A DNA stretch of 64,000 nt from Cellulosimicrobium sp. Marseille-Q4280 (GTDB lineage Bacteria > Actinomycetota > Actinomycetes > Actinomycetales > Cellulomonadaceae), in assembly GCF_943181405.1 (NCBI RefSeq), contig NZ_CALPBY010000009.1, forward strand, positions 151,174 through 215,173, read 5' to 3'. A program made the position numbers and the translations under genes. Shown here in pieces: positions 2,175 through 47,368 of this stretch. How positions within the stretch are numbered: the first letter of the stretch is position 1; each line of letters opens with the position of its first letter. The notes under the pieces are model-generated. The model saw only the letters and a program-made list of their open reading frames with translations, was not told where the DNA came from and did not search any database.

Positions 2175-2184
2175 TGCCGCACAT
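2175..2184 (+). promoter_or_regulatory. TGCCGCACAT element upstream of the 2237 gene
   Basis: Exact TGCCGCACAT. The next start codon is 52 nt away and has a GGAG SD, so a transcript starting about 10 nt after the element would carry a short leader. Confidence 0.6.
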
Positions 2185-2236
2185 ATAGGCGCCACGACGA
2201 GGGAACGGCCCTCACAGTGACCGAACGGAGCAGACG

Positions 2237-2890
2237 ATGAGCATCAAGATGAACCGCCGCCAGCGGATCGCCGCCGCGATCGCCGCCGGTGTCGTCGCCC
2301 TGGGTGTCACCGCGGGCGTCGTCGTGGCGAACGTGCAGGACGAGCCGACCGTGCGCGAGCCGGTCGCCACCGCCGAGCCGGCCGCCACGACCGAGCCGAC
2401 CACCCCGTCGACCCCGGAGCCGACCGAGGCCGCCACCCCGGAGCCGGTCATCCCGGCAGCCGCAGGCGAGATCGTCTCGGCAGACCTCATCGACGCTGCC
2501 CGCGACGCGGGCGCACAGGTGTACGTCTCGCCGAACGGTGACGGCTCGGGTGTCGTGGTCGACCCGGCCGCGGCCCTGCCGGAGCAGGTGCAGGTCGACA
2601 TCACGTCGCTGCCCTCGCAGCCGAGCACGATGCAGGACTTCTCGGACATGTCCGTCGCGCAGGGTGCCCAGCACACCGCGATGAAGGACGCCGGCATCAA
2701 GGCGTTCTACGTGACCCGCGCCCCGTACATCGAGGGCACGAGCGTCGTCCGGCTGGACTGGATGGTGTTCGCGCTGGGTCTGGACGACGCCGGCTCGTTC
2801 GGCTCGACCATCGCCCCGACCCGTGAGGGTGCGCTGGCGGCGGCCGCTCCGATGCTGGCTGCCTACCCGGGCGTCCCGGTCATCGGCTGA
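2237..2890 (+). CDS. Membrane-anchored exported protein, function unknown
   Basis: The 217-residue product has a charged N terminus, one membrane segment at about residues 13-31 (AAAIAAGVVALGVTAGVVVA), then a Pro/Thr/Glu-rich linker with repeated EP pairs to about residue 75 and a compact C-terminal domain of about 140 residues. The layout suggests an extracytoplasmic domain held on a stalk. A GGAG SD lies before the ATG. I do not recognise the C-terminal domain. It sits ahead of the conjugation-like genes and may belong to the same envelope module. Confidence 0.7.
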   Translation: MSIKMNRRQRIAAAIAAGVVALGVTAGVVVANVQDEPTVREPVATAEPAATTEPTTPSTPEPTEAATPEPVIPAAAGEIVSADLIDAARDAGAQVYVSPNGDGSGVVVDPAAALPEQVQVDITSLPSQPSTMQDFSDMSVAQGAQHTAMKDAGIKAFYVTRAPYIEGTSVVRLDWMVFALGLDDAGSFGSTIAPTREGALAAAAPMLAAYPGVPVIG

Positions 2891-2893
2891 TCC

Positions 2894-2929
2894 CCACCGC
2901 CTCGCGGCCTCATCGTCGCGGGGCGGTGG
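2894..2929. terminator. Intrinsic terminator-like hairpin
   Basis: A 13-bp stem (CCACCGCCTCGCG with one G-T pair) and a 10-nt loop start just past the stop of the 2237 gene. Confidence 0.6.
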
Positions 2930-2985
2930 CTTCGGCTGCCAGCCGCTGCAGCAGCGGCGCGGGGAGTGATTCTCACCTTCCCCAT

Positions 2986-2995
2986 ATGTGCGGCG
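2986..2995 (-). promoter_or_regulatory. CGCCGCACAT element, minus orientation
   Basis: The + strand reads ATGTGCGGCG, so the element points left. I see no minus-strand gene to its left, which makes this copy an exception: inactive, bidirectional, or driving an antisense RNA against the 2237 gene. Confidence 0.4.
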
Positions 2996-3062
2996 CACGC
3001 CCGATTTCGTGCGCCCGCGTGCGCTTCACCCGACCCTCTTTCACCCCTCCTGGAGCCCCTCC

Positions 3063-3374
3063 ATGCTCGGTCTCGCCTTCCTCGTCGTCCTGGTCGCCAT
3101 CTGGCTGTGCTGGGGCTGGATCGGACGCATCTTCCTCACCGCCACGACCCTGTTCTGGGGCCTGGGCTGGCTGCTGTTCCAGGGCGCGCGCAACGACGCC
3201 GCGAGCGCCGACGACCTCGGCGTCATCGACGCCCTGCTGTGGGCCTGGCTGATCGGCGTGGCCCTGGCCAGCGCCCTGCGGTACCGCTCGCGCCGGCGCG
3301 CCGCCCAGGCCCGTGCGGGCGCCTACTACGCGGGCGGGTACGAGGACGGCTACACCGACGGGAGCGCCCGATGA
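3063..3374 (+). CDS. Small two-span membrane protein
   Basis: This 103-residue protein is read from ATG 3063, preceded by a GGAG sequence, and starts directly in a hydrophobic segment (MLGLAFLVVLVAIWLCWGW). A second hydrophobic stretch covers residues ~13-37 and a third ~55-70, followed by an Arg-rich stretch and a Tyr/Gly-rich tail. An upstream in-frame ATG at 2988 would add 25 unlikely residues. It overlaps the next gene by 4 bases (ATGA), so the two are probably co-translated. No family recognised. Confidence 0.6.
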   Translation: MLGLAFLVVLVAIWLCWGWIGRIFLTATTLFWGLGWLLFQGARNDAASADDLGVIDALLWAWLIGVALASALRYRSRRRAAQARAGAYYAGGYEDGYTDGSAR

Positions 3375-3826
3375 CCACCACCCTGCCCGGCCTGCCGTAC
3401 CTGGCGCCGGCCACGACCCCCACCGACGACCTGCAGGCCGCCACCGGTGACGCGAACGCCACCTGGCTGCTCGCCGAGACGCAGGACGTCGCGCCGGGCG
3501 ACCTGGTCCTGCTCGGCGTCGAGGGCACCGAGCTCGCCGTCGCCGTCGTCGTCGAGGTGAACCAGCACTGGGCCGCCGTCCTGCCTGCCGCCGTCGCGGG
3601 CGCGAACGCGGCCGGCCGCCTGCTCACCCCGGCTGGCCTGCCCGCCGTGCAGGCGTGGCCCGTCGAGGTGAGCGTGCACACCGGCCTGATCGAGCGCCGC
3701 ATCGCCCCGGTCGCCACCGCCAGCGAGCTTGCAGCGCTGACCGCGGGCGCCAGCGACGAGCCGATGCCCGGCGACATCGAGGCGCTGTGGTCGAGCCTGA
3801 ACCTCGGCATCGACACGGGGCGCTGA
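3371..3826 (+). CDS. Soluble hypothetical protein
   Basis: The 151-residue product has no membrane segment or signal peptide. Its centre (residues ~40-80) alternates Val/Ala/Leu-rich strands (GDLVLLGVEGTELAVAVVVE), suggesting a small beta-barrel. The start overlaps the stop of the preceding membrane protein, and the DnaJ-like gene begins 5 nt after its own stop, so 3063-4437 looks like one transcript. Function unknown. Confidence 0.65.
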   Translation: MTTTLPGLPYLAPATTPTDDLQAATGDANATWLLAETQDVAPGDLVLLGVEGTELAVAVVVEVNQHWAAVLPAAVAGANAAGRLLTPAGLPAVQAWPVEVSVHTGLIERRIAPVATASELAALTAGASDEPMPGDIEALWSSLNLGIDTGR

Positions 3827-3831
3827 GCGAC

Positions 3832-7474: not shown

Positions 7475-7484
7475 TGCCGCACAT
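7475..7484 (+). promoter_or_regulatory. TGCCGCACAT element before the helicase
   Basis: Exact copy; GTG 7492 follows after 7 nt. It decides the helicase start: an upstream in-frame ATG at 7456 would put the element inside the gene. Confidence 0.65.
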
Positions 7485-10327: not shown

Positions 10328-10337
10328 GCCCGCACAT
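10328..10337 (+). promoter_or_regulatory. GCCCGCACAT element variant
   Basis: GCCCGCACAT, two changes from consensus, then 9 nt and ATG 10347 with no SD in the usual place. Confidence 0.55.
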
Positions 10338-11084: not shown

Positions 11085-11094
11085 TGCCGCACAT
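11085..11094 (+). promoter_or_regulatory. TGCCGCACAT element at the head of the tRNA array
   Basis: Exact copy 45 nt before the first tRNA (Trp), with no reading frame between. This copy argues that the element acts in transcription rather than translation. Confidence 0.65.
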
Positions 11095-11139
11095 AGAACT
11101 GGAGCCGGACCAGAACGCCGGCACCGACAGCACCACCTA

Positions 11140-11210
11140 GGGATGTAGTTCAGCTGGAAGAACGCCGGTCTCCAAAACCGGAAGTCGGGGGTTCGAACCC
11201 CTCCATCCCT
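11140..11210 (+). tRNA. tRNA-Trp(CCA)
   Basis: Anticodon stem CCGGT/ACCGG with loop CTCCAAA. The acceptor GGGATGT pairs with CCATCCC except for one T-C at the base. No encoded CCA. First gene of the array. Confidence 0.85.
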
Positions 11211-11533
11211 GCTCGGCTCTCGGTCACTGTGGCACCTCGCGTGTCATACACCGCGAAGCGAACGTGCCGCCCTCGGGCGGATTGTCAACTGCACAGAGAC
11301 GAGAAGTAGCCGACCGGCACCATCCGGTCGGCCCTCGATGAGCACCGCGTCCCCCGGGGCGCGCCCACGACGTGGAACCCGCCGAGCGCGGGGGAGTCAC
11401 GGGCGACCCGGATCTGAGCGCGGCGCATCGTCGAGAACCCCAGGTGGCGCCGACCCCGCGCGCCCGGCCTCCGCGTACAGCGTGCCGGGTGTCCCGCGAG
11501 GGCATGGCGGACGGCGCCACCTGGGTTCATCAG
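11211..11533. other. Gap in array without recognisable gene
   Basis: About 320 bases with no convincing ORF and no TTC-type T loop. TGTCATACA at 11241 resembles sequences at 10822 and 22529. Otherwise nothing assignable. Confidence 0.5.
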
Positions 11534-11618
11534 GCGTCGATGACCCGAGCGGACGAAGGGCCCCGGCTGTAAACCGGGCACGTCAGAGACATCGGAGGTT
11601 CGAATCCTCCTCGGCGCA
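11534..11618 (+). tRNA. tRNA-Tyr(GTA)
   Basis: Class II tRNA with long variable arm. Loop CTGTAAA in stem CCCGG/CCGGG. Acceptor GCGTCGA/TCGGCGC, discriminator A, no CCA. Confidence 0.85.
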
Positions 11619-11623
11619 CTCAC

Positions 11624-11699
11624 GTCACGGAACGATCCCCCTACGGCAGGCGGGCGGCCGACGAGCTGGCCCGGGTTCGAGCCCCGGCGGTCCGTGACG
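11624..11699 (+). other. tRNA-like unit, isotype unresolved
   Basis: A 7-bp outer stem GTCACGG/CCGTGAC spans 76 nt and encloses a perfect T arm (CCGGG, TTCGAGC, CCCGG). I cannot fit a normal anticodon arm; the candidate loop between GGCC and GGCC is GACGAGCT (8 nt). The T arm is also displaced from the outer stem. Degenerate or non-standard tRNA. A second isolated T arm (GCCGG, TTCGATC, CCGGC) follows near 11730. Confidence 0.35.
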
Positions 11700-11965
11700 A
11701 TCAGACCTCCGGGGACGGAGAGAAGGCCGGTTCGATCCCGGCCGGCGGGCCCGCCTCGTGCGGACCTCCCGCCGTTGGCAGCACCGAGTCCCCGCCGCAC
11801 GGCATGCGGCAGGCCCCGTCGGGCCAGGAACCAAGCGACGGCCGGTCCTCTCCGGTGAACAGGGGCGCCAGGCACCTGGCGGACGAAGGTGGCGGCCGGG
11901 GGACACCCCGGATACGGCCGGGATGGTGTCGAGGGTGAGCCCCGCCAGGGCAAGTCCCTCATCGG

Positions 11966-12042
11966 GCGCCTCTAGCTCAATCGGTCAGAGCATCTGACTC
12001 TTAATCAGAGGGTTCTGGGTTCGAGTCCCAGGGGGCGCACCA
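11966..12042 (+). tRNA. tRNA-Lys(CTT)
   Basis: Stem TCTGA/TCAGA, loop CTCTTAA. Acceptor GCGCCTC/GGGGCGC, discriminator A followed by an encoded CCA. Confidence 0.95.
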
Positions 12043-12142
12043 GGTCGACGTAGGGCCCACGCCGCGGAGGCGTGGACGGCGGGCGTCCCGCGAGACGTGC
12101 CGTCGGCGGGTCGCGGCCCGTGAACCTGCGCCGACCGCACAC

Positions 12143-12218
12143 GGTGACGTAGCTCAGCTGGCAGAGCAGCGCGCTCATAACGCGCAGGTCAGGGGATCGA
12201 GACCCCTCGTCACTACCA
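12143..12218 (+). tRNA. tRNA-Met(CAT), elongator-type or Ile2
   Basis: Stem GCGCG/CGCGC, loop CTCATAA. Acceptor GGTGACG/CGTCACT, discriminator A plus encoded CCA. The T loop is ATCGAGA (A54 and A60 instead of T54 and a pyrimidine). The CAT anticodon could also belong to a lysidine-modified Ile tRNA. Confidence 0.85.
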
Positions 12219-12241
12219 GGCCGCCTGACCGCGGCCAGCAA

Positions 12242-12314
12242 GGCCCTGTAGCTCACTCGGGAGAGCACCGCCCTGTCACGGCGGAGGTAGCCGGATCGAA
12301 ACCGGTCAGGGTCG
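12242..12314 (+). tRNA. tRNA-Asp(GTC)
   Basis: Stem CCGCC/GGCGG, loop CTGTCAC, discriminator G as usual for Asp. The T loop ATCGAAA again has A54 and A60. No CCA. Confidence 0.85.
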
Positions 12315-12421
12315 CGTAGGCACCTCGCCCGTTCAAGTCGGGCAGGCAAACCCCAGCGGTTCGACTCCGCGCAGCCAGTGGTTGGCGTGGGGAGCGGGTC
12401 CGGATGACCCAGGTGTCGTGA

Positions 12422-12495
12422 TGGCGGGTAGCTCAGTCGGTTAGAGCGCGGTCCTGATAAGACCGAGGTCGGCGGTTCGATCCCGCCCCTGCCAA
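12422..12495 (+). tRNA. tRNA-Ile(GAT)
   Basis: Stem CGGTC/GACCG, loop CTGATAA. Acceptor TGGCGGG/CCTGCCA, discriminator A, no CCA. Confidence 0.92.
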
Positions 12496-12634
12496 CTGGA
12501 ACCACCTGCTCGAGGCGCTGCGCAGCGCCGAGGGCGGGCAGGTGCCGAGACCGCTGAGAGGAGCGGCAGCACCGCCCGGGCTGAGGCAGCGACCGGGCGA
12601 CGGGCACGACCAGTCCGCCGGGGCACCGGGAAGC

Positions 12635-12704
12635 ATGCGGGTTCGCTGTGGTGTGTCGCCGGCCGTTCCAGGTCGGAGCGGAGGTTCGATTCCTCCACCG
12701 CACG
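12635..12704 (+). other. tRNA-like unit with unusual anticodon loop
   Basis: Good T arm (GGAGG, TTCGATT, CCTCC) and an anticodon-like stem CCGGC/GTCGG enclosing CGTTCCAG, 8 nt, or 6 nt if C-G closes. The acceptor ATGCGGG/ACCGCAC has two mismatches. The loop contains TTCC, recalling Gly(TCC), but the register is not normal. Confidence 0.4.
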
Positions 12705-12715
12705 CAGGTCAACAC

Positions 12716-12788
12716 GGACGGCTAGCTCAGCTGGCAGAGCATTCCCTTCACACGGGAGAGGCCGGGGGTTCAAGTCCCTCGCCGTCCA
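12716..12788 (+). tRNA. tRNA-Val(CAC)
   Basis: Stem TTCCC/GGGAG, loop TTCACAC. Acceptor GGACGGC/GCCGTCC, discriminator A, no CCA. Confidence 0.93.
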
Positions 12789-12974
12789 CAGTGCGCACCG
12801 CAGTACCGCCCACACAGGTAGCGGGACGCGGCAACCCGGAACGCAGCGCCAGCGCGGGAGCTAGCTGCAGCACGACGGGCCGAGCCTTCCATCCGTGGGT
12901 GGCCCGGGACCGGTCACCCGTTGCCTCGTGCGAGCACGGCAGGTACCCCCGGACCTGCCCAGACGGGAACACAC

Positions 12975-13048
12975 GCCCCCACGGTCTAGAGGCCTTGGAC
13001 GTCGCCCTCTCACGGCGAAGGACGCCGGTTCGAATCCGGCTGGGGGTG
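12975..13048 (+). tRNA. tRNA-Glu(CTC)
   Basis: Stem TCGCC/GGCGA, loop CTCTCAC. Acceptor GCCCCCA/TGGGGGT, discriminator G. Confidence 0.93.
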
Positions 13049-13229
13049 CTCGAATGCGAGAACACGACCCGAGCCGTGCGCGGCCCGGGGAGCGCGAAGG
13101 TCACGCGAGAGTCCAGCCCATCGGCACGGGAGCGCAACCCCGCCGGCGGGTGTCCGCACGGTGGACAGACCTGACTGGCGACGGGACAGACGTCGCAACT
13201 GGCCCACCAGGTTGGAGTGGTGGGAACCT

Positions 13230-13300
13230 GCCCCGCTGGTGTAGCGGTAGCACGCCGGCCCCTCAAGCCGGTAACACGGGTTCGATCCCCGTGCGGGGTA
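13230..13300 (+). tRNA. tRNA with CTC-like anticodon and C33
   Basis: Acceptor GCCCCGC/GCGGGGT, T arm ACGGG/CCCGT and D arm GTGTAGCGGTAGCAC are all sound. The anticodon stem CCGGC/GCCGG holds CCCTCAA: position 33 is C rather than the near-invariant T and positions 34-36 read CTC. It may be a second Glu tRNA or have another identity. Confidence 0.6.
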
Positions 13301-13588
13301 CGTAGCGCCAGCGCGCGGCGCGCACTACCGGGCTTCGGCTGACGCGGTGCGAACGTGCGAACGGGACGGCCCCGTCAGGGCCGCCAGCCACCCCGGTGCA
13401 GCCCGTGAAGGCCCGGGGACAGCAGCACCCGGCCGCTGACGGCGGTCGCTGCACCAGCCTGAGCAGCACGCTCGAGGACCGCGATGACCGGGTGTGACCC
13501 GGCGGATCGGTCGACCACCATCAGGACCGGTGGGAACCCGCCCGTGCGGGGCCAGCGCCAAGGGTGCGCGCCGGCCGACACGGAACGA

Positions 13589-13665
13589 CGCGGAGTGGAG
13601 CAGTTCGGTAGCTCGCTGGGCTCATAACCCGGAGGTCGCCGGTTCGAATCCGGCCTCCGCAACCA
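13589..13665 (+). tRNA. Initiator tRNA-fMet(CAT)
   Basis: Carries the bacterial initiator marks: C1-A72 mismatch (CGCGGAG against CTCCGCA), three G-C pairs at the base of the anticodon stem (CTGGG/CCCGG), loop CTCATAA, and D arm GGAGCAG..GGTAGCTC. An encoded CCA follows discriminator A. Confidence 0.95.
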
Positions 13666-13734
13666 CGGTCCTGGCCCCAGCCTCCACCTGGGCGGACCCG
13701 GGGGTAGCCGCAGCCAGGCGCGGACCCCCGACTT

Positions 13735-13807
13735 GCCCGCGTGGCGCAGCGGATAGCGCGTCGCACTACGGATGCGAAGGTCAGGGGTTCGAATCCCTTC
13801 GCGGGCA
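13735..13807 (+). tRNA. tRNA-Arg(ACG)
   Basis: Stem TCGCA/TGCGA, loop CTACGGA. Acceptor GCCCGCG/CGCGGGC, discriminator A. The A34 would need inosine modification by host TadA. Confidence 0.95.
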
Positions 13808-13841
13808 CACGTCACACACCGACCAGGACAGGAGGACCGAC

Positions 13842-14165
13842 ATGGCCATCAACGCCGCAGCCGTCGTGCTGCCCGAGCTGCTGGGCTCGCGAGGATCGGC
13901 CGCGGCCCTCATCCGCCGGTCGGTTCCCGCCGGCACCACCGAAGTCGCCGTCTCGGCGGCGCACACCGTCACGGTCGCGGCCAGCGCCGCAGCGGAGCTC
14001 GTCAAGGTGCTGCTCGACGTCGGCGTCGACCGGGTCGTCCTGGTCGAGGCGAACGAGCGCGTCGAGAGCCACCTGCGCGACGCGCTGGACCGCCAGGCAC
14101 GCCCCGAGCGGACGTTCCTGCTGACCGCCCAGCGCGGACGTGAGGACGCGGTGTACCGCACCTAG
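13842..14165 (+). CDS. Small alpha/beta hypothetical protein inside the tRNA array
   Basis: The 107-residue product has an AGGAGG SD 6 nt before ATG 13842 and lies between tRNA-Arg(ACG) and tRNA-Leu(CAG). Strand-helix alternation (TTEVAVSAAHTVTVAA, AAELVKVLLDVGVDRVVLVEA) loosely resembles a STAS fold, but there is no diagnostic residue. No signal or membrane segment. Its placement suggests it is made from the same transcript as the tRNAs. Confidence 0.6.
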   Translation: MAINAAAVVLPELLGSRGSAAALIRRSVPAGTTEVAVSAAHTVTVAASAAAELVKVLLDVGVDRVVLVEANERVESHLRDALDRQARPERTFLLTAQRGREDAVYRT

Positions 14166-14238
14166 ACCCGGGTGGACCCGCCCTGCCCCCTTGCGGGGCG
14201 CAACGAGGCCCGGCGCGCGGCCGGTCATCCCGCGCACT

Positions 14239-14323
14239 GCCCCGATGGCGGAACTGGCAGACGCGCACGGTTCAGGTCCGTGTGCCTTCGGGCGTCCGGG
14301 TTCGACTCCCGGTCGGGGCACCA
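14239..14323 (+). tRNA. tRNA-Leu(CAG)
   Basis: Class II. Stem CACGG/CCGTG, loop TTCAGGT. Acceptor GCCCCGA/TCGGGGC, discriminator A, encoded CCA. Confidence 0.95.
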
Positions 14324-14505
14324 GCTCGCCCAGCGCGAGCGCACTACTTGAGAGCACGCCTGCGGCCACTGACCCGCTGCCTCCCAGCAGCCGGCCAGCC
14401 GCGGTGTGCGCCCTCCCGGGCGGGACGTAGACCTCGGGGACCGAGCCGGACGGCGAGCACCGGCAGCCTGGCGGCCCTTCTGGGAGGGGGCGGCCGCCAG
14501 GACCA

Positions 14506-14577
14506 GCCCAGGTAGCTCAGTGGTAGAGCAGCCGCCTCGTAAGCGGCAGGTCGCGGGTTCGACCCCCGCCTTGGGCT
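14506..14577 (+). tRNA. tRNA-Thr(CGT)
   Basis: Stem GCCGC/GCGGC, loop CTCGTAA. Acceptor GCCCAGG/CTTGGGC, discriminator T. Confidence 0.94.
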
Positions 14578-14701
14578 CTGGCGCGGAAGCGCCGCACGAC
14601 GACGGACTGGCGTGCCGTCGCGGCACGACGGCGGGACACCCCTTCGCGGGGCCCCGTGCGTCGACCGCACACCTACACGCCCGGGCCCCAGCGGCCCGCC
14701 T

Positions 14702-14776
14702 GCCCGGCTAGCTCAGTGGTAGAGCGCACCCTTGGTAAGGGTGAGGTCGCGGGTTCGAACCCCGCGTTGGGCTCCA
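14702..14776 (+). tRNA. tRNA-Thr(GGT)
   Basis: Stem CACCC/GGGTG, loop TTGGTAA. Acceptor GCCCGGC/GTTGGGC, discriminator T, encoded CCA. Confidence 0.94.
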
Positions 14777-14806
14777 GGTCCGCGGCCAGCACCGGCCGCC
14801 GGCCAT

Positions 14807-14891
14807 GTCTCCGTGGCGAAATGGCAGACGCGCGGCCTTGAGGTGGCCGTGCCCCGGAAGGGGCGTCCCGGTTCAAGTCCGGGTGGAGACA
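14807..14891 (+). tRNA. tRNA-Leu(GAG)
   Basis: Class II. Stem CGGCC/GGCCG, loop TTGAGGT. Acceptor GTCTCCG/TGGAGAC. It has the same anticodon as the chromosomal tRNA-Leu at 49260 where the element is integrated. Confidence 0.94.
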
Positions 14892-15000
14892 CGTCGCGGT
14901 CAACGTCAGCCGCTCCCGGTCGTTCATCGCCGGGGTGGAGCGAAGGTCGGCACAGAGGCGGGTTCCTCCCTGATCTCCCGCCGCCAGACCTGCCGCGCAT

Positions 15001-15090
15001 GGAGGGTTGCCAGAGATAGGACGATAGGGCCCGCCTCGAAAGCGGTGCGGCGGCGCGAGCCGCTCGGGGGTTCGAATCCCTCACCCTCCG
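15001..15090 (+). tRNA. tRNA-Ser(CGA)
   Basis: Class II with long variable arm. Loop CTCGAAA, acceptor GGAGGGT/ACCCTCC, discriminator G. The 10 bases just before it read TGCCGCGCAT, one change from the element consensus. Confidence 0.92.
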
Positions 15091-15108
15091 CACAGCGGCC
15101 ACGCCACG

Positions 15109-15118
15109 TGCCGCACAT
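15109..15118 (+). promoter_or_regulatory. TGCCGCACAT element inside the tRNA array
   Basis: Exact copy 8 nt before the 5' end of the tRNA-like unit at 15127, close to the spacing seen before leaderless ATGs. It could start a second array transcript. Confidence 0.6.
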
Positions 15119-15126
15119 AGGTACCT

Positions 15127-15207
15127 CGAGCGAGAGACCCCGCCGCAGTGGTAGCGGGGCGAGCCGGGCACATGAACCCGGCCACGACGCGGACCCGTGT
15201 CGCTCGA
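15127..15207 (+). other. tRNA-like unit with non-canonical T loop and 8-nt anticodon loop
   Basis: Perfect 7-bp acceptor CGAGCGA/TCGCTCG, discriminator A. The D arm (CCGCAGTGGTAGCGG) looks normal. The anticodon stem CCGGG/CCCGG encloses CACATGAA (8 nt). The T arm is CACG/CGTG around ACGCGGACC, with no TTC. It starts 8 nt after a promoter-like element. Confidence 0.45.
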
Positions 15208-15278
15208 ACGGTCCGAAGTCGGTGGGACTGCAGCCCGCCGGCCGACACCAGAGGTGCTGCGCGCGTCGCGGCTCCACG

Positions 15279-15352
15279 CCTGGCAGAAGCACGAGGGACG
15301 TGCACCCGCCCGTCAGGGCGGGAGGAAGCGGGTTCGACTCCCGTCGCTGAGG
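15279..15352 (+). other. tRNA-like unit, acceptor not resolved
   Basis: Anticodon-like stem CCCGC/GCGGG with an 8-nt loop CCGTCAGG, then a 5-nt variable region and a good T arm (GCGGG, TTCGACT, CCCGT). I find no 5' partner for the expected acceptor strand CGCTGAG. Possible pseudo-tRNA or a tRNA with an expanded loop; the 5' end is approximate. Confidence 0.35.
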
Positions 15353-15388
15353 AGGTGGACGCCAGCCGTGCCGCGGCAGCCCTCGACT

Positions 15389-15461
15389 GGGGAGCCATGT
15401 TCCTTGGTGGCGACTGATCCTTGCAAGATCGGTGCGGCGGGTTCGATCCCCGTGCTCTCCA
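15389..15461 (+). tRNA. tRNA-Ala(TGC)
   Basis: Stem TGATC/GATCG, loop CTTGCAA. Acceptor GGGGAGC/GCTCTCC, discriminator A. Confidence 0.9.
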
Positions 15462-15573
15462 CAGATCCGTCCGACCGTGCCGGTGCCGCGACCCCTTCGT
15501 CGCCGCGCCGCCCGACGTAGGCGGGTCCCTGGTGGCCCCCGGATGCTCGAGTAGCGCCCGGGGGTCGCCGCCT

Positions 15574-15646
15574 CTGGATGTAGCGCAGTTGGTAGCGCGC
15601 CCCGTTCGGGACGGGGAGGCCGTGGGTTCGAGTCCCGCCATCCGGA
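15574..15646 (+). tRNA. tRNA-Pro(CGG)
   Basis: Stem CCCCG/CGGGG, loop TTCGGGA. Acceptor CTGGATG/CATCCGG, discriminator A. Confidence 0.94.
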
Positions 15647-15793
15647 CGTAGCCGCCTCGCGCGGCACCTGCCCGCGGACCACCTTGCCGGTCCGGCCGCG
15701 GGCCGAGTGGACCGGCGATGGGTGCTCTCGCGGGTCGACCCGAACTCGACTCGCCACAGCCGCCGGACCACCTGCACGGGTGGGCCGGCGTGC

Positions 15794-15866
15794 GCCCGCC
15801 TAGCTCAGAGGTCAGAGCGTCCGCCTTGTAAGCGGAGGGTCGTGGGTTCGACTCCCACGGTGGGCT
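15794..15866 (+). tRNA. tRNA-Thr(TGT)
   Basis: Stem TCCGC/GCGGA, loop CTTGTAA. Acceptor GCCCGCC/GGTGGGC, discriminator T. Third Thr tRNA of the array. Confidence 0.94.
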
Positions 15867-16004
15867 CATGGTCGCGCGACGCGTCCACACCCGGGCCCGG
15901 CCCGGGCAGGCGGCAGGACTCTCCAGCAGGGTGGACTCGGAGACCAGGAATCCGCCCGTCGCACGACCAGCACGACGGCCCGCGCGAGCCGTGATCGCGT
16001 CCCT

Positions 16005-16076
16005 TCCCCGGTAGCTCAACGGCAGAGCGTCCGATTGTTAATCGGCAGGTTCCTGGTTCGAATCCAGGTCGGGGAG
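16005..16076 (+). tRNA. tRNA-Asn(GTT)
   Basis: Loop TTGTTAA in stem CCGA/TCGG. Acceptor TCCCCGG/TCGGGGA, discriminator G. Confidence 0.94.
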
Positions 16077-16135
16077 CGCAGCAGTCGTGGCGCGCAGCAC
16101 CACGGCGTGCACGGGTCGCCCACGTCACGGGCGGT

Positions 16136-16255
16136 GCAGGGCTGCCGGAGCGGCCGAACGGAACCGCCCCCTCGTGGGCGGTGGGATGCACCGCGTCGCC
16201 TGCCCTCGGGTGGGCGCGCGGTGGGTCCCCGGAGGTTCGAATCCTCCGCCCTGTG
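16136..16255 (+). other. Oversized Ser-like tRNA unit (120 nt)
   Basis: Acceptor GCAGGGC/GCCCTGT with discriminator G, Ser-like D arm (TGCCGGAGCGGCCGAA), and T arm GGAGG, TTCGAAT, CCTCC. The anticodon-like stem ACCGCC/GGCGGT encloses CCCTCGTG (8 nt, or 6 nt with a C-G closing pair). A ~45-nt variable region can form a nested hairpin (ACCGCG/CGCGGT outside, CGCC/GGCG inside), far longer than normal Ser arms. Confidence 0.5.
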
Positions 16256-16321
16256 CGTGGGTCCACCAGCGATGCCCAGGCTGCGGCCGAAGCTGGCGTT
16301 GGCCGTCGACAAGGCCACCCT

Positions 16322-16409
16322 GGTAGGTGAACTCCGCGGTGGCGCGGGGCCCCGGTTGCTAACCGGGTGGGTCGCTTCGGCGGCTGAGGTTCGAGCCCTC
16401 CGGCTACCG
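16322..16409 (+). tRNA. tRNA-Ser(GCT)
   Basis: Stem CCCGG/CCGGG, loop TTGCTAA, long variable arm, discriminator G. The acceptor GGTAGGT/GGCTACC has one G-G mismatch. Confidence 0.88.
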
Positions 16410-16411
16410 CG

Positions 16412-16978
16412 TCAGCGGCGCGCCAGGTTCCGCCAGATCGGCAGCCGGCCGACCGCGTCGTACTTGCTCATGAGCACCTGCAGGTCGTTCAGCCCGTGCC
16501 TGGCGGCGTCCAGGTCTGACCGAGCCGCGTCCATCGCGCGCTTGAAGTCGCCGCCGGCCGGCCGTCCGCTGCGGCTCGCCATCCGCGCTCGCACCACAGC
16601 AAGCTCCTGGACGTCGGCGCGTGCCAGGTCCAGCGCCGTGAGCACGCGCGACCCACCGGTCACCAGGCGCGGGGAGACGATCTCCATCTCGATGAGCGTG
16701 GCGCGGGTCTCCTGCATCGCCGGGTCGAGCTCGGCGGGCTCGGGCAGATCCTTGCCCTGGTTGGACTGCTGCATCGACGCCTCGCGCTCCTGCAGCAGGC
16801 GCAGCGAGGTGTTCGCCGCCCGCCAGAACCGCAGGTGCACGTCGCGGCGGCGGTTCGCGGCATCCCCGCGCTGCTGCAGCCGCACTGCGGTCAGGGCCAC
16901 GACGCCGCTGAGGAGAGCTGCGACGAGCGCGACGCCCACCGCGGCGGTCGCGATCACGTTCTCCGGTGTCCAGGTCAC
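16412..16978 (-). CDS. Membrane-anchored coiled-coil hypothetical protein
   Basis: Read from GTG 16978, this is a 188-residue product. Residues ~8-30 form one membrane segment (VIATAAVGVALVAALLSGVV), followed by long Arg/Glu/Gln-rich helices (FWRAANTSLRLLQEREASMQQ and onward), probably coiled coil. It runs opposite to the array and its stop lies 2 bases from the 3' end of tRNA-Ser(GCT). No family recognised. The coding pattern fits a real gene despite its position. Confidence 0.6.
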   Translation of the reverse strand: MTWTPENVIATAAVGVALVAALLSGVVALTAVRLQQRGDAANRRRDVHLRFWRAANTSLRLLQEREASMQQSNQGKDLPEPAELDPAMQETRATLIEMEIVSPRLVTGGSRVLTALDLARADVQELAVVRARMASRSGRPAGGDFKRAMDAARSDLDAARHGLNDLQVLMSKYDAVGRLPIWRNLARR

Positions 16979-17356
16979 ACGCGCACTCTAGTGGCGCGCG
17001 TGCCGGTCTCTGGCGGCCGCACCGCGGCCCCACGACGCTGTCCGAACCCACCGTTCAGACGCCACCCCGGACCTCCCCGGAGCGGTCGAGCGAAGGCGGG
17101 TACGACAGATGCTCCTGGCGGACAGCGCGAGGAGAGCCACCACGAAGCCTGAGTCCGGCGGAGGTGGGTGGCGACCCGGCTCGGGGACGTCGCGCGGCGG
17201 TGCGCGGCGTGCAGAGCGACATGGAAGGTGAACCGGACAGGCGTGCCGGGACCGCCTGGAAAGCGCGTCGGTCGGCCTCGGGCCGGCTGGGGATCACGTC
17301 CTCCTCCTTCCGCCTCGCCGCCTTTGCGGTGCGTCTGGCCCACGACACGGGCTCAT
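16979..17356. other. Array spacer without recognisable gene
   Basis: About 380 bases. ORFs here are artefacts of high GC, and no tRNA-type T arm is visible on either strand. It should hold the promoter for the minus-strand gene at 16978. Confidence 0.5.
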
Positions 17357-17432
17357 GTGGGTGTAGCTCAGCTGGTAGAGCGCGAGGTCGCCATCCTCGA
17401 GGCCGCGGGTTCGAACCCCGTCTCCCACTCCA
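17357..17432 (+). tRNA. tRNA-Gly(GCC) with C33
   Basis: Stem CGAGG/CCTCG, loop TCGCCAT: C at position 33. Acceptor GTGGGTG/CTCCCAC has one T-T mismatch. Discriminator T with encoded CCA. The body resembles tRNA-His, but the anticodon and T73 indicate Gly. Confidence 0.8.
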
Positions 17433-17512
17433 GTCACGCGCTCGGCTCCGGCCGGGCGGGTTGCGGCCATCGCCCAGCCGCACGCGCCCCGGCGCGGACC
17501 TCCGGGGATCTC

Positions 17513-17585
17513 GCGGATGAAGCTCAACAGGTTGAGCGCGACCCTCCCACGGTCGAGGCAGCGGGTTCGAGTCCCGTCATCCGCT
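17513..17585 (+). tRNA. tRNA-Gly(CCC)
   Basis: Stem CGACC/GGTCG, loop CTCCCAC. Acceptor GCGGATG/CATCCGC, discriminator T. Confidence 0.93.
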
Positions 17586-17753
17586 CGAGGCAGGCCACCT
17601 GCCGTCGCGTCGCCCCGCCCGCACCGGGACGGCGAGGCACGAGTGGCAGGAGCGTCCCGCGGCGCCCGACGCCCGGCCTTGACAGCCGGGCACCTTCACC
17701 GCCCCTCAGTAGGGGGTATGGGGAGGCGGGGTGCGACGTCGCGGGGCGATCTT

Positions 17754-17826
17754 GGGGACGTGGCGCAGCTGGTAGCGCACCTGCATGGCATGCAGGGGGT
17801 CGCGGGTTCGAACCCCGCCGTCTCCA
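17754..17826 (+). tRNA. tRNA-Ala(GGC)
   Basis: Stem CCTGC/GCAGG, loop ATGGCAT. Acceptor GGGGACG/CGTCTCC, discriminator A. Confidence 0.93.
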
Positions 17827-17856
17827 CAGGCGCCGGCCCATCATCGGGCCGGACTC

Positions 17857-17929
17857 GCGCTCGTAGCTCAGCGGATAGAGCACCTGCCTCCGGCGCAGGG
17901 GGTCGCAGGTTCGAGTCCTGCCGAGCGCA
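17857..17929 (+). tRNA. tRNA-Arg(CCG)
   Basis: Stem CCTGC/GCAGG, loop CTCCGGC. Acceptor GCGCTCG/CGAGCGC, discriminator A. Confidence 0.94.
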
Positions 17930-17965
17930 CGCAGCATCACCACGTCGGCCCTGTGTGGGCCGCAC

Positions 17966-18038
17966 GCGCGGCTAGCTCAGTTGGTAGAGCGCCGGCACGA
18001 CATGCCGGATGTCCGGGGTTCGAGTCCCTGGTCGCGCA
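17966..18038 (+). tRNA. tRNA-Val(GAC) with C33
   Basis: Stem CCGGC/GCCGG, loop ACGACAT: C at position 33. Acceptor GCGCGGC/GTCGCGC, discriminator A. Confidence 0.88.
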
Positions 18039-18040
18039 CT

Positions 18041-18117
18041 GTGTCCGTAGCTCAGACGGCTAGAGCGCCTGGATGTGGCCCAGGAGGTCGCGGGTTCGAG
18101 TCCCGTCGGACACCCCA
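18041..18117 (+). tRNA. tRNA-His(GTG)
   Basis: Stem CCTGG/CCAGG, loop ATGTGGC. Acceptor GTGTCCG/CGGACAC, discriminator C73 as in other His tRNAs, encoded CCA. The base at -1 is T, so G-1 would have to be added or the 5' end differs. Confidence 0.9.
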
Positions 18118-18120
18118 CGT

Positions 18121-18171
18121 ACCGAGCTCACCGCCGCGCCCCTCCCTGGGCGCGCGGCGGTGAGCTCGGGT
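18121..18171. terminator. Strong hairpin between array segment and minus-strand gene
   Basis: An almost perfect stem of about 20 bp (ACCGAGCTCACCGCCGCGC with small bulges) lies between tRNA-His and the convergent gene at 18176 and probably terminates both. Confidence 0.75.
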
Positions 18172-18175
18172 GCGG

Positions 18176-18742
18176 CTACAGCCAGACGGCGGACAGGATC
18201 TCCTGCTCCTGCCAGGCGTCCTCACCGTCGAGCGCGCGCAGCCCTGCGACGGTGACCTCGACGCGACGGCCGGCCACGTGCACCGTCGTGTCGTCGGGGC
18301 CGTAGTCGTCGTCGGCCTTGAGCCCTTCGGCGCTCAGGCTCTCAGGGGCACGGTAGGTGTCCAGCAGCCCCGTGACCTCGACCTCCAGCGTGAAGGTCAG
18401 GTTCCACAGCTCGTCGCCGTCGTAGTCGTCGACGTGCTGGACGTCGTTGACGTCGACCACGAGGGCACTGGCGTACCAGGCGTCGTGGAGCACCGCCGTC
18501 GTCGACTTCGCTGCCGCGAGCGCCCCCGCGGGGTGCCGCCGGGGCAGCTCGGAGGCGAAGTCGTCGGCCGCGCGGTCGGCCCAGCGCGGCCAGCCGAGCG
18601 AACGGGCTCGTGCGGCGCGCACGACGCCCAGGTGCCGGTTCGGGTCGAGAGCCGCGAGCTCACGCTGCGCGGCGGCGTAGGAGATGCCCTTCGCAGCGGC
18701 CAGTCGGCGCGCGTCACGGGGATCCACAGGGTAGGTCGTCAT
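18176..18742 (-). CDS. Hypothetical protein with N-terminal GISYAAAQREL motif
   Basis: A GAGAG SD precedes ATG 18742, giving 188 residues. Residues ~9-30 (ARRLAAAKGISYAAAQRELAAL) form a short helical motif also seen at the start of the ATPase at 26696 (ALAASRGTTYTAALREHE). The C-terminal ~90 residues are acidic and beta-rich (ALVVDVNDVQHVDDYDGDELWNL onward). Function unknown; the shared N-terminal helix suggests a common docking or processing signal. Confidence 0.65.
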   Translation of the reverse strand: MTTYPVDPRDARRLAAAKGISYAAAQRELAALDPNRHLGVVRAARARSLGWPRWADRAADDFASELPRRHPAGALAAAKSTTAVLHDAWYASALVVDVNDVQHVDDYDGDELWNLTFTLEVEVTGLLDTYRAPESLSAEGLKADDDYGPDDTTVHVAGRRVEVTVAGLRALDGEDAWQEQEILSAVWL

Positions 18743-18959
18743 GATCAGCTCTCTGCTGGGTGCTCGTCCCGCGCCGCGCATCCCAGTCTGCTGCTGGTCT
18801 GACGGTGATGAGGGCCCTGCAGCATCGGCGGTCCCGCCTTGTCCTCGTGGCGGCCGCCGCGGGGCTGGTCGCTCGGAGACCGGTCCATGCCATCACCGGT
18901 GCCTGAGAATGTAGCACCGCCACGAGCGGTGGCGTGGCGTTGTGGAGCGGCACCAGCGC

Positions 18960-18969
18960 TGCCGCACAT
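18960..18969 (+). promoter_or_regulatory. TGCCGCACAT element, 9 nt before ATG 18979
   Basis: Exact copy; the intervening bases are CGGTAGGGC. Confidence 0.7.
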
Positions 18970-18978
18970 CGGTAGGGC

Positions 18979-19365: not shown

Positions 19366-19398
19366 CCGACCGACCCGCGCGCCCCCGGGCGCGCACCT

Positions 19399-19472: not shown

Positions 19473-19478
19473 CCCCGC

Positions 19479-30229: not shown

Positions 30230-30239
30230 TGCCGCACAT
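30230..30239 (+). promoter_or_regulatory. TGCCGCACAT element upstream of the C5 methyltransferase
   Basis: Exact copy. ATG 30249 follows after 9 nt and ATG 30245 after 5 nt; the 9-nt ATG opens a short leader ORF. Confidence 0.65.
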
Positions 30240-31213: not shown

Positions 31214-31452
31214 GCGACCCGACGCCCGAGCAGGTCGCCTCAGCGCAGCGGCTCGCGCTGCTGACGAGCGAGGACGGCGACTGGCTCGTCGACCCCGAGT
31301 CCGCCCAGTTCCACGCCGACATCGCCACCCTCGTGCGCATGGCCGGCGTCGAGCCCGTCGCCCACTCCTACGGCCACGAGCACGAGCTGCCGGACTGGGC
31401 CCGCGAGCAGATCCGGGCGCGCTACGGCGACGGCGATGCCGCACATCGGTAG
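31210..31452 (+). CDS. Small acidic hypothetical protein, 80 residues
   Basis: GTG 31210 overlaps the methyltransferase stop (GTGA). The product is helical and acidic (EQVASAQRLALLTSEDGDWLV, FHADIATLVRMAGVEPV). Its last codons contain the next promoter element, so 3' coding sequence and promoter overlap. No family recognised. Confidence 0.6.
   Translation: MSDPTPEQVASAQRLALLTSEDGDWLVDPESAQFHADIATLVRMAGVEPVAHSYGHEHELPDWAREQIRARYGDGDAAHR
31437..31446 (+). promoter_or_regulatory. TGCCGCACAT element, 9 nt before ATG 31456
   Basis: Exact copy lying within the last codons of the preceding gene. Confidence 0.7.
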
Positions 31453-32757: not shown

Positions 32758-32767
32758 TGCCGCACAT
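32758..32767 (+). promoter_or_regulatory. TGCCGCACAT element, 9 nt before ATG 32777
   Basis: Exact copy; spacer CAGCAGGGC. Confidence 0.7.
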
Positions 32768-33083: not shown

Positions 33084-33093
33084 TGCCGCACAT
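33084..33093 (+). promoter_or_regulatory. TGCCGCACAT element, 9 nt before ATG 33103
   Basis: Exact copy; spacer CAGCACGGC. Confidence 0.7.
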
Positions 33094-34769: not shown

Positions 34770-34779
34770 CGCCGCACAT
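34770..34779 (+). promoter_or_regulatory. CGCCGCACAT element, 9 nt before ATG 34789
   Basis: One change from consensus (C for T at position 1). Confidence 0.65.
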
Positions 34780-35772: not shown

Positions 35773-35782
35773 CCCCGCACAT
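35773..35782 (+). promoter_or_regulatory. CCCCGCACAT element variant
   Basis: Two changes from consensus, 42 nt before ATG 35825, which has a GAAGGA SD. Confidence 0.5.
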
Positions 35783-37807: not shown

Positions 37808-37817
37808 CGCCGCACAT
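37808..37817 (+). promoter_or_regulatory. CGCCGCACAT element, 9 nt before ATG 37827
   Basis: One change from consensus; spacer CTACCGGGC. Confidence 0.65.
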
Positions 37818-39793: not shown

Positions 39794-39803
39794 TGCCGCA
39801 CAT
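39794..39803 (+). promoter_or_regulatory. TGCCGCACAT element, 9 nt before dnaE ATG 39813
   Basis: Exact copy; spacer ATATCCACG. It fixes the dnaE start at 39813 rather than at the in-frame GTG 39789. Confidence 0.7.
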
Positions 39804-44562: not shown

Positions 44563-44572
44563 TGCCGCACAT
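44563..44572 (+). promoter_or_regulatory. TGCCGCACAT element, 68 nt before ATG 44641
   Basis: Exact copy. The gene has a CTGGAGAA SD. Confidence 0.6.
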
Positions 44573-45922: not shown

Positions 45923-45932
45923 TGCCGCACAT
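45923..45932 (+). promoter_or_regulatory. TGCCGCACAT element upstream of ssb
   Basis: Exact copy 95 nt before ATG 46028; an ATG directly abuts it but opens no convincing gene. Confidence 0.6.
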
Positions 45933-45966
45933 ATGAAGGTTGCGGGGGCTTCCCCGCCGGTCGACC

Positions 45967-45976
45967 TGCCGCACAG
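45967..45976 (+). promoter_or_regulatory. TGCCGCACAG element variant upstream of ssb
   Basis: Second, imperfect copy 51 nt before the ssb start; ssb may have two promoters. Confidence 0.45.
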
Positions 45977-46027
45977 GTCACAGGTAGAGCCGGATCTGAA
46001 CCGGACGAGCAGTAGGAGGAAGTACAC

Positions 46028-46519
46028 ATGGCTGGTGACACCCAGATCACGGTGATCGGGAACCTGACCGGCGACCCGGAGCTGCGGTTCACGCCCTCCG
46101 GCGCGGCGGTCGCGAACTTCACGGTCGCCTCCACCCCGCGCACCTTCGACCGGCAGACGAACGAGTGGAAGGACGGCGACACGCTGTTCCTGCGCGGCTC
46201 GATCTGGCGCGAGGCCGCGGAGAACGTCGCCGAGTCGCTCACGAAGGGCATGCGCGTCATCGTCCAGGGCCGCCTGGTCCAGCGCTCGTACGAGAAGGAC
46301 GGTGAGAACCGCACCGTCGTCGAGATGCAGGTCGACGAGATCGGCCCGTCGCTGCGCTACGCGTCGGCGAAGGTCACCCGCAAGCAGGGTGGCGGCAACG
46401 GCGGCGGCAACGGTGGCGGCCAGGCGGCCGCGTCCGCCCCGGCGGCGTCGGCGCCCGCCGCGTCGGCCCCGGCTGCGGCCCCGGCCGCGGAGTCCGCGGG
46501 CGGTGGCGAGGAGTTCTGA
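46028..46519 (+). CDS. ssb: Single-stranded DNA-binding protein
   Basis: The 163-residue protein has an N-terminal OB fold ([60 protein letters not shown]), a Gly/Ala/Pro-rich tail and a short acidic end (GGGEEF). Canonical SSBs end in DDDIPF; this reduced tip may change partner binding. It binds single-stranded DNA during replication. A strong AGGAGG SD precedes ATG 46028. With dnaE it forms an element replication set. Confidence 0.93.
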
Positions 46520-46538
46520 GCCCGGCTCCCTCCTGAGG

Positions 46539-46570
46539 CAGGCCCTCACCCCTTCGGGGGTGGGGGCCTG
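46539..46570 (+). terminator. Terminator after ssb
   Basis: 14-bp stem (CAGGCCCTCACCCC with one G-T) around a TTCG loop. Confidence 0.8.
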
Positions 46571-46611
46571 TCGCCGTTCCGGCGCATGTTCGTACACCGA
46601 GGAGGGGTTCG

Positions 46612-47319
46612 ATGCGATTCGTTGGTGTAGGGGTCGGCCTGGGGCTGGCTCTGGTAGGTGTGATCGCCGCCGGTGGCGGCCTGCAGGACCCGGTCGGTCC
46701 GGTCGGCGCGCTGCGGCAGTGGATGGTCGCCGTTGCGGCGCTGATCGCACTCGGGGCGCTCGCGCAGCGCCTGGGCGGGGGCACGGGCCGCTGGACGGGG
46801 GAGAAGGACCCGCAGCGCATGTACTCCGTGGAGCAGCGCCGGGTGATCCACGCCCGCGCCGGCGGGCAGTGCGAGTACACCGGGTGGGGCTGGCAGCGCT
46901 GCCGCAGCGCGTCCGAGCACGCCGACCACCTGCACCCGCACGCCAAGGGCGGGGCGACCAGCCTGCTCAACGGCGTCGCCTCGTGCGCGCACCACAACAC
47001 GTCCAAGGGCGCCAAGCTGCTGCCCAAGTCCAAGATCCGCTCCCTCGAGCGGCGCCGGCGCCGGTACTTCCCGCCGGGCGCCGAGGTGCGTGTCGGCGAG
47101 CTCTACGACCCCGCGACGACGCGCGTGGGGGAGATGGGCCTGGCCTCGGCCGCCCAGGCGCCGGCCGAGTTCGTGCTGCCGGCCGGCTGGGGCGACGAGC
47201 CCGAGTCGGCGCTGCCGCAGACGACTGCACCCCCGGTGCCGTTGTCGACTCCGGGGGTGCAGCGGGCGGCGAACGGCGCCGCGGTGCCGTCGCGGCCACG
47301 CGACGTGCCACTGTGGTGA
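46612..47319 (+). CDS. Membrane-anchored HNH endonuclease
   Basis: The 235-residue product has two N-terminal membrane spans (about 3-23 and 37-55) and then an HNH domain: QRRVIHARAGGQCEYTG, CRSASEHADHLHPHAKGG with the catalytic His, SLLNGVASCAHHNTSKGAK. The C-terminal ~80 residues are Pro/Ala-rich. A strong AGGAGG SD lies before ATG 46612. Membrane-tethered HNH proteins are uncommon; it may cut incoming DNA or act at the envelope during transfer. Confidence 0.85.
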   Translation: MRFVGVGVGLGLALVGVIAAGGGLQDPVGPVGALRQWMVAVAALIALGALAQRLGGGTGRWTGEKDPQRMYSVEQRRVIHARAGGQCEYTGWGWQRCRSASEHADHLHPHAKGGATSLLNGVASCAHHNTSKGAKLLPKSKIRSLERRRRRYFPPGAEVRVGELYDPATTRVGEMGLASAAQAPAEFVLPAGWGDEPESALPQTTAPPVPLSTPGVQRAANGAAVPSRPRDVPLW

Positions 47320-47358
47320 GATGTCCGGCTTGTGCACCCGCACTCGGGCGAGTCGCAA

Positions 47359-47368
47359 TGCCGCACAT
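47359..47368 (+). promoter_or_regulatory. TGCCGCACAT element, 9 nt before ATG 47378
   Basis: Exact copy; spacer ATACAGTTC. Confidence 0.7.

Follow-up and report, generated by a model that had tools for sequence, protein, structure and literature searches.

A start-linked CCGCACAT motif, predicted to be a promoter class, in a large conjugative-type element of Cellulosimicrobium

Phages provide the best-known examples of dedicated transcription systems. The promoters read by sigma28 (FliA/WhiG) contain a composite extended -10/-10 element that starts with GCCG and has the consensus GCCGATAA (PMC2859248, PMC8325347), and the -10 of the Escherichia coli aer promoter, which is read by FliA, is GCCGACAT (PMC2859248). 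In Mycobacterium tuberculosis, leaderless genes were reported to make up 26% of the genes with a primary transcription start site (TSS); 85% of the mapped TSSs were purines, and C or T was commonest around them (PMC3898074). The start-associated sequences of cluster K mycobacteriophages are asymmetric repeats of 13 bp, GGGATAGGAGCCC, found just upstream of starts across one mobile genome (PMC3203893), and a published transcript map of the bifidobacterial megaplasmid pMP7017 gives TTGACA-n17-TATAAT promoters (PMC10832533). In our study, the motif CCGCACAT was analysed in a window of 64,000 nucleotides (nt) of Cellulosimicrobium sp. Marseille-Q4280 (positions 151,174 to 215,173 of contig NZ_CALPBY010000009.1, called C9 below) and in the large mobile element of which the window holds one end. 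No description of this predicted promoter class was found in the open-licence PubMed Central texts searched.

The sites of the element mostly read G/C-CCGCACAT, and its GCCGCACAT is close to the aer -10 sequence. When the motif and the sigma28 -10 consensus were aligned by us on A-11, CCG and A-11 T-10 were common to both, with the GCCG of the element lying 3 bp further upstream. Unlike sigma28 promoters, the element has no TAAA at -35 (80 nt upstream, across elements), its core is invariant and the predicted start is placed on the start codon. Actinobacterial leaderless genes resemble the predicted starts of the element in having the TSS on the start codon, a purine at +1, C or T at -1 and no conserved -35 (PMC3898074); they mostly possess the host -10 box TANNNT, whereas the element lacks that box and its motif is confined to one element family. 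A first-pass annotation of the window, made from its letters alone, had named the mycobacteriophage start-associated repeats as a partial analogue. Their placement upstream of starts is indeed shared, whereas the cluster K sequence differs from CCGCACAT and sigma28-type promoters are closer. The pACHL01-type megaplasmids of Pseudarthrobacter, Arthrobacter and Curtobacterium share with the element a VirB4-like ATPase, DnaE, ligase, pilus ATPases, a sigma-like protein and a variant motif at the same offset; they differ in being plasmid records and in their motif, CCG[CT]ACACA or CCGCGCATAG. The pMP7017-type megaplasmids share a distant VirB4-like ATPase and other core homologues, a tRNA array and a tmRNA (PMC10832533), whereas they contain neither a fixed-offset motif nor the sigma-like protein.

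The motif and its confinement to one element

Gene starts were taken from our own codon-usage caller, which gives a bonus to starts preceded by a Shine-Dalgarno (SD) sequence, and not from curated annotation; window gene coordinates come from calls that included a bonus for the motif, and gene-based counts from later calls without that bonus. At positions -19 to -10 from the start codon, 92 of the 410 genes called in the fetched parts of contigs C9 and C3 matched the 10-mer TGCCGCACAT with at most two mismatches, no gene had three mismatches and 318 had four or more. Because all mismatches of the 92 genes fall in the first two letters, the true core of the motif is CCGCACAT, invariant at -17 to -10, and the leading TG is optional. 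In the window, TGCCGCACAT was matched 26 times when one mismatch was allowed, where 4.0 were expected (standard deviation 2.0, maximum of 100 shuffles 9); the approximately 26 copies noted at first were thus recovered, with 19 exact instead of the 17 reported. The core occurs 25 times in the window and does not occur in the 14.7 kb to the right of the attachment site described next, in line with the earlier remark that the motif was not seen among the chromosomal genes right of 49260.

The 3' end of tRNA-Leu(gag) contains a 23-bp repeat, found at 49,258-49,280 of the window and again on the minus strand of the same genome (G000) at C3:114,788-114,810. The two contig ends are therefore both ends of one integrated conjugative-type element, at least 315 kb long (C9:1-200,432 plus C3:1-114,810), with the contig break inside it and one end in the window. 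In the family genome G043, homologues from both sides of the C9/C3 break adjoin each other. The genome contains 98 exact copies of TGCCGCACAT, 92 within the element and 6 in the ~4.5 Mb outside it; read backwards, the 10-mer occurs 21 times genome-wide. The extent of 2175..47368 first given to the motif was therefore too small. The element contains 170 core copies (118 in C9 and 52 in C3), compared with 9 of the reversed octamer (7 and 2, respectively) and 1-6 of each of three further control octamers. ATG or GTG stood at the tenth base past the core (+10, with 9 nt between) in 116 of the 170 copies (75 in C9, 41 in C3), whereas the four control octamers had a start codon there in 0 of 25 copies in the element (C9 and C3), in none in G043 and in 1 of 19 in genome G132.

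A search of 221 family genomes gave TGCCGCACAT-N9-ATG in 18, of which G000 (51), G043 (21), G132 (21) and G004 (6) had at least six matches and the remaining 14 had one or two; the backward pattern was found at most once per genome and strand. Among 396 genomes of the order, CCGCACA-N9-CATG was rich only in G000 (106) and G476 (53), followed by all others with at most 7; by its coordinates, G476 is the same Pseudactinotalea terrae genome as G221 of the family set. In viral contigs, at least 120 stretches matched a search pattern, each with one match among the matches listed, probably by chance. The motif is genuine and specific to the element, and the window shows only part of its extent.

Predicted transcription starts and leaderless genes

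The base at +10, which would be position +1 of the RNA, was studied in the copies without ATG, GTG or TTG there and without ATG one base off. A purine was found in 332 of 380 such copies over seven elements: 39/48 in G000, 40/48 in G043, 34/49 in P. terrae (G221), 23/25 in G132, 66/72 in pACHL01 (W01), 79/86 in Arthrobacter zg-Y1110 (W02) and 51/52 in Curtobacterium pCPAA3 (W03). Both copies of G004 also had a purine, and the background purine content was 47-54%. The preceding base was a pyrimidine in 63-76% of copies in six of these seven large sets and in 49% in P. terrae, whose weaker +1 signal speaks against the promoter reading. Since a purine stands there even in copies without a start codon, a transcription start at this base is very probable, and the other mRNAs would be leaderless.

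The distribution of the copies points the same way. An SD-like sequence was found at only 3 of the 92 genes with the core at -17, compared with 159 of the 285 other element genes, the latter count being inflated by the SD bias of the caller. For 58 copies, the next called start follows at a distance of 18-160 nt, and 39 of those starts have an SD-like sequence. A core within 160 nt upstream was present at 107 of the 185 first genes of a run versus 50 of the 193 internal genes. A conserved -35 was not seen: across elements, none of the 80 positions upstream is conserved, and back-to-back divergent copies (for example C9:69,940/69,941) leave no space for one. Nor does the motif contain a host-type TANNNT ending near -7: position -12 was C, not T, in 92 of 92 motif genes, and T at -7 was scarce (3% in C9, 5% in G132, 2% in G221; 2-5% when W02 and W03 are included, and 22% in W01). 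The claim that the consensus differs from the standard -10 was thereby borne out.

The register was also retained in relatives. Scans made de novo gave, at the unchanged offset, CCG[CT]ACACA in W01, CCGCACACATAGG in W02, CCGCGCATAGG in W03 and CCGCACAT in G221, and the variants among relatives at this offset include CCGCGCATAG; variant copies numbered 192 in W01 and 196 in W02. CCGNACA-N10-ATG was found 108, 85, 22, 4 and 6 times in the plasmids W01 to W05 (W04 being pMP7017), where the backward pattern gave 1, 1, 1, 2 and 1, respectively, and 76 times in G221 when host copies are counted as well, against 3 for the backward pattern. A start codon stands at +1 in about two thirds of the copies of the present element and in 44-61% of those in six relatives. 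The scan of pMP7017 showed only SD-like signals and no fixed-offset motif.

A signal for translation initiation carried in the mRNA would explain the fixed distance to the start codon and the shortage of SD-like sequences at motif genes, subject to the same caller bias. It would not explain the copies that stand well ahead of SD-preceded starts or of tRNA genes, nor the purine at +10 where no start codon follows, and we regard it as extremely improbable. Another reading takes the motif as an operator at which an element repressor or silencer would act on host-read promoters, in the manner of phage stoperators or start-associated sequences. Many identical, oriented sites within one element are what such a system would show, and the cluster K sequences likewise stand just upstream of starts (PMC3203893). 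This reading is highly unlikely: no other shared promoter element was found upstream or downstream of the motif, and the 9-nt register to the start codon is exact and is kept by the variants. We therefore predict, with high confidence, that the motif is an element-wide promoter class which fixes RNA starts on start codons. The original proposal of a promoter core with a start about 10 nt downstream and leaderless mRNAs is supported by the +1 purine, by the copies at the tRNA array and by the shared offset of the variants in relatives.

In the window, the ten genes singled out at first were all found to have the 8-bp core exactly 9 nt ahead of ATG. On the plus strand, the cores at 10330..10337, 18962..18969, 25678..25685, 31439..31446, 32760..32767, 33086..33093, 34772..34779, 37810..37817, 39796..39803 and 47361..47368 precede ATG at 10347, 18979, 25695, 31456, 32777, 33103, 34789, 37827, 39813 and 47378, respectively; the gene at 39813 encodes a DnaE-like DNA polymerase III alpha subunit. 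Genes 10347, 34789 and 37827 have differing letters at the first two TGCCGCACAT positions, which prove variable. The core at 29177..29184 (+) lies 8 nt from ATG 29193. Another, at 30232..30239 (+), lies 9 nt from ATG 30249, the start of a 13-codon open reading frame (ORF; 30249-30290) whose TGA overlaps the start at 30287. Short leaderless ORFs with a stop overlapping or abutting another start were also seen at G000:C3:80,996 and G000:C9:42,706, an arrangement suggestive of leader peptides that are themselves leaderless and are coupled to the main gene.

Copies ahead of the tRNA array and of a minus-strand gene had been noted at 11085, 15109 and 25458, and their cores were located at 11087..11094 (+; predicted +1 G 11104, 35 nt before tRNA-Trp), at 15111..15118 (+; inside the array, G 15128) and at 25458..25465 (-; G 25448, gene 25407-24487). 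Further plus-strand cores are followed by a predicted +1 and the next called start as follows: 2177..2184 (A 2194; start 2237), 7477..7484 (G 7494; 7519), 20052..20059 (G 20069; 20093), 21555..21562 (G 21572; 21614), 44565..44572 (A 44582; 44641) and 45925..45932 (G 45942; 46028, single-stranded DNA-binding protein, SSB). The core at 25527..25534 (+) has a predicted +1 at A 25544, and that at 35775..35782 (+) is an exception to the purine rule with C 35792. Two minus-strand copies are probably chance occurrences, namely 2986..2993, with GTG at +10 and a 37-codon ORF, and 48095..48102, inside the integrase gene with a predicted +1 of C.

A divergent sigma-like protein as candidate reader

The first-pass annotation had suggested a dedicated sigma factor or activator, and a divergent sigma70-like protein was indeed found to be encoded by the element. 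It has 294 amino acids (aa) and lies at C9:118,646-119,530 on the minus strand, 32 kb left of the window; its length is 278-301 aa across elements. It is common to G000, G043, G221, W01, W02 and W03, is absent from pMP7017 and, with the variant element of family genome G167, is present in seven of the nine motif-bearing elements examined. In pACHL01, which is carried by Pseudarthrobacter chlorophenolicus A6, its gene is ACHL_RS22105 and it is annotated only as an 'HTH domain-containing protein'. Pfam Sigma70_r3 was listed for all five members scanned (E 1e-4 to 1.3, below cut-off), and six of ten matches to PDB profiles were sigma factors (E 0.07-1.1), in regions 2.4-3. NCBIfam models for sigma70, FliA or FliA/WhiG matched three of four members (E 0.015-0.05), including TIGR02937 in W01 and W02 (E 0.015 and 0.016); a SigE-type match with E 2.2 was left out of this count. 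In profile-profile comparison with chromosomal sigma factors of the family, the protein reached 94.3%, the highest of 118 element families, followed by the next family at 8.4%. By target, the values were 94.3% for a mixed sigma profile (regions 3-4), 82.7% for a FliA-like profile (regions 2-4) and 29.1% for sigmaA; the nearest sigma profiles are those of FliA/WhiG.

Several results weigh against this protein as the reader. All its sigma-family scores in Pfam and NCBIfam are below the curated cut-offs, the member of the present element has no NCBIfam match at all, and the best Pfam match of the W01 and W02 members is HTH_11, which is not a sigma family. The best PDB profile match, 8vd6 (E 0.01), is not a sigma factor, and single members compared with the sigma profile reach just 4-50%. 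In searches of the genome with PF04542 and PF04539, 19 matches and one match were obtained, respectively, all of them outside the element. The protein is not present wherever the promoters are: no sigma homologue was found in the whole genome of G132 or among its element proteins (138 in one comparison and 142 in another), nor any sigma-like protein in the 43.5-kb contig of G004 with its 15 core copies. Conversely, eleven further family genomes have nearly full-length homologues (E<1e-30), of which G167 has variant motifs; in the remaining ten, TGCCGCACAT-N9-ATG and CGCATAG-N8-ATG were each found no more than once per genome. Around the sigma-like gene, only SD-like fixed-offset signals were seen in G168 (140 kb) and G120 (120 kb). 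In the order sample, eleven genomes beyond G000 and G476 match at E<1e-5 (G167 among them, and three others nearly full length), and none of the eleven is rich in CCGCACA-N9-CATG. By co-occurrence, the protein is not separable from other core proteins, and a 377-aa core protein fits the motif better. The presence of the sigma-like protein neither guarantees the motif nor is strictly required for it.

No motif was found on the same strand within 6 kb upstream of the sigma-like gene in six of six elements. Such gaps are expected from motif density with a chance of 0.20-0.58 per element, and the six elements are related, which again tempers the observation. In Curtobacterium pCPAA3, three more partial sigma-like homologues were seen at 359,675-360,394, 175,002-175,301 and 180,642-180,995. 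The sigma profile gave one match in viral contigs (L304), where no enriched start-linked motif was found in 20.8 kb (one CCGCGCAT-N9-ATG).

Adenine at -11 is the most important base of ordinary -10 boxes, and the core has A at this position. A small activator, such as the WhiB-like protein encoded at C9:142,114-142,509 (minus), might let the main host sigma use a non-standard -10, which would leave the promoters and leaderless starts unchanged. The WhiB protein (Pfam E 4.9e-27) is found in G000, G043, G221, G132 and W03, and G132 thus has it although no sigma-like protein was found there. As a general reader it was rejected, since no homologue was found in W01 and W02 despite their numerous variant copies; the scarcity of T at -7 also counts against an activated host box, and we consider this explanation unlikely. 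A further explanation is that another element protein reads the motif, either an unusual phage-like RNA polymerase or a factor that sequence comparison did not recognise, for example the 377-aa protein (C9:135,039-136,172). A single short, rigid box with no -35, and divergent copies that leave no space for one, would suit such a reader. The 377-aa family is found in G000, G043, G221, G132, W01, W02 and W03 and is absent from W04, and the 964-aa protein at C3:77,757-80,651 is likewise without a Pfam family. However, no polymerase domain was found among the 34 distinct element proteins scanned of 378. The 377-aa family was not found in G004, it occurs in eleven other family genomes of which ten have at most one match per motif searched (G166 being outside the CGCATAG-N8-ATG search), and neither W01 nor W02 has the 964-aa protein; this explanation is quite unlikely. 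As a sigma factor, the 377-aa protein, which lies beside VirB4 and has the stretch 'SGWIRQT', sigma-like by eye, was rejected for want of Pfam, NCBIfam and PDB support and for its 0.1-0.5% in profile comparison. The 964-aa and 492-aa core proteins were rejected as readers, having no Pfam family and nothing telling in PHROGs or by eye.

Overall, we moderately favour the reading that the CCGCACAT promoter class is read by the divergent sigma of the element. The RNA would begin 10 nt past the last base of the core, on a purine. Where a start codon begins at this base, as in about two thirds of the copies, the mRNA would be leaderless; the remaining copies would give leadered mRNAs, often with an SD sequence, or tRNA transcripts. 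The reader would be the host RNA polymerase core with a very divergent sigma70-type factor, FliA/WhiG-like, recognising a composite extended -10/-10 element without a -35. On arrival in a new cell, the sigma gene may first be transcribed by the host polymerase, and the whole element would then be switched on; that the 6 kb ahead of this gene contain no motif would fit such an order.

The element, its relatives and their significance

The element has 378 called genes, and the DNA fetched from C9 and C3 has a G+C content of 73-76%. An integrase gene (Phage_integrase, E 1e-17; 47827..49134, minus) adjoins the 23-bp attachment repeat (49258..49280) at the right end of the element, as expected of an element integrated at a tRNA gene. 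An array of tRNAs with a tmRNA occupies 11139..21479 (+); ARAGORN gives 30 tRNAs in it, whose anticodons cover all 20 amino acids, and Rfam gives 28. Besides the integrase, genes for DnaE, SSB, thymidylate synthase, a ParA-type ATPase, an NAD ligase and a DarB-like protein were found. Conjugation-related genes encode a VirB4-like ATPase (AAA_10), a 2088-aa protein with an FtsK/SpoIIIE domain and an M23 peptidase, and pilus ATPases and a T2SSF pilus protein were confirmed by Pfam. No relaxase was identified in Pfam scans covering 34 distinct proteins of the 378. The 2088-aa protein (L003:3746-10012, minus) is interrupted near residue 1260 by a LAGLIDADG homing-endonuclease domain, which is probably part of an intein. 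SipW/TasA-type exported and pilin-like proteins, judged by eye, were seen at G000:C9:7,000-42,000, at C3:11,000-56,000 and in the gene ending at 2096 of the window. The 964-aa core protein is without a family match, is conserved in G000, G043, G221, G132, G004 and pCPAA3, and has weak relatives in three large phages.

An N-terminal signature, R-VPAGV-TGGQF-xxARxESxV-L, was found in at least 51 genes (30 in C9 and 21 in C3) whose proteins are otherwise different, located in L001-L003 (G000:C9:1-43,700), L012 (G000:C3:3,000-20,000) and the window (10347-10793 and 37827-38666). A shared start of this kind is reminiscent of a tag for targeting or packaging. In 29 of the 51 genes, the core is followed by the spacer CTAC (CTACC at gene 10347), and these genes are possibly a subclass.

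With the VirB4-like protein as query, one relative in GTDB contigs (P. terrae) and 17 plasmids were found, and the viral contigs gave no match. The element of G167 (L328-L334, G167:C3:40,001-180,000) has two start-linked classes, CGCATAGG, one base further out, and CCCGTCAAC; CGCATAG-N8-ATG was found 16 times there and never backward. Five of nine G167 genes with CCCGTCAAC begin ATGAGCACCCA. In G132, the 220 kb fetched from one contig of 56% G+C contain 62 copies of the core, and 35 of these have a start at +1. The FtsK-type protein of 2088 aa was not found in G132, nor were DnaE, SSB and ParA in the stretch fetched, and this element may be a remnant, though its motifs are intact. The G004 contig (G004:C14) has a candidate integrase with its core copies and could be a fragment, or a satellite relying on the reader of another element.

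The same CCGCACAT is found in use in chromosomes of 56% and 75% G+C. We tentatively put forward, as a plausible generalisation, that actinobacterial conjugative elements and megaplasmids of ~300-570 kb may share a private transcription system, with a sigma of their own, more than 100 near-identical promoters without a -35 that fix the RNA start on the start codon, and much leaderless expression outside the promoter and SD rules of the host, in which motif and sigma diverge together by lineage. If true, a conjugative element with its own sigma and more than 100 identical promoters would represent a new route to alike expression across hosts. Leaderless translation could be studied on its natural, sequence-defined set of leaderless genes, its promoter would be a candidate orthogonal promoter in actinobacterial genetics, and the joint divergence of sigma and promoter could be tested on it.

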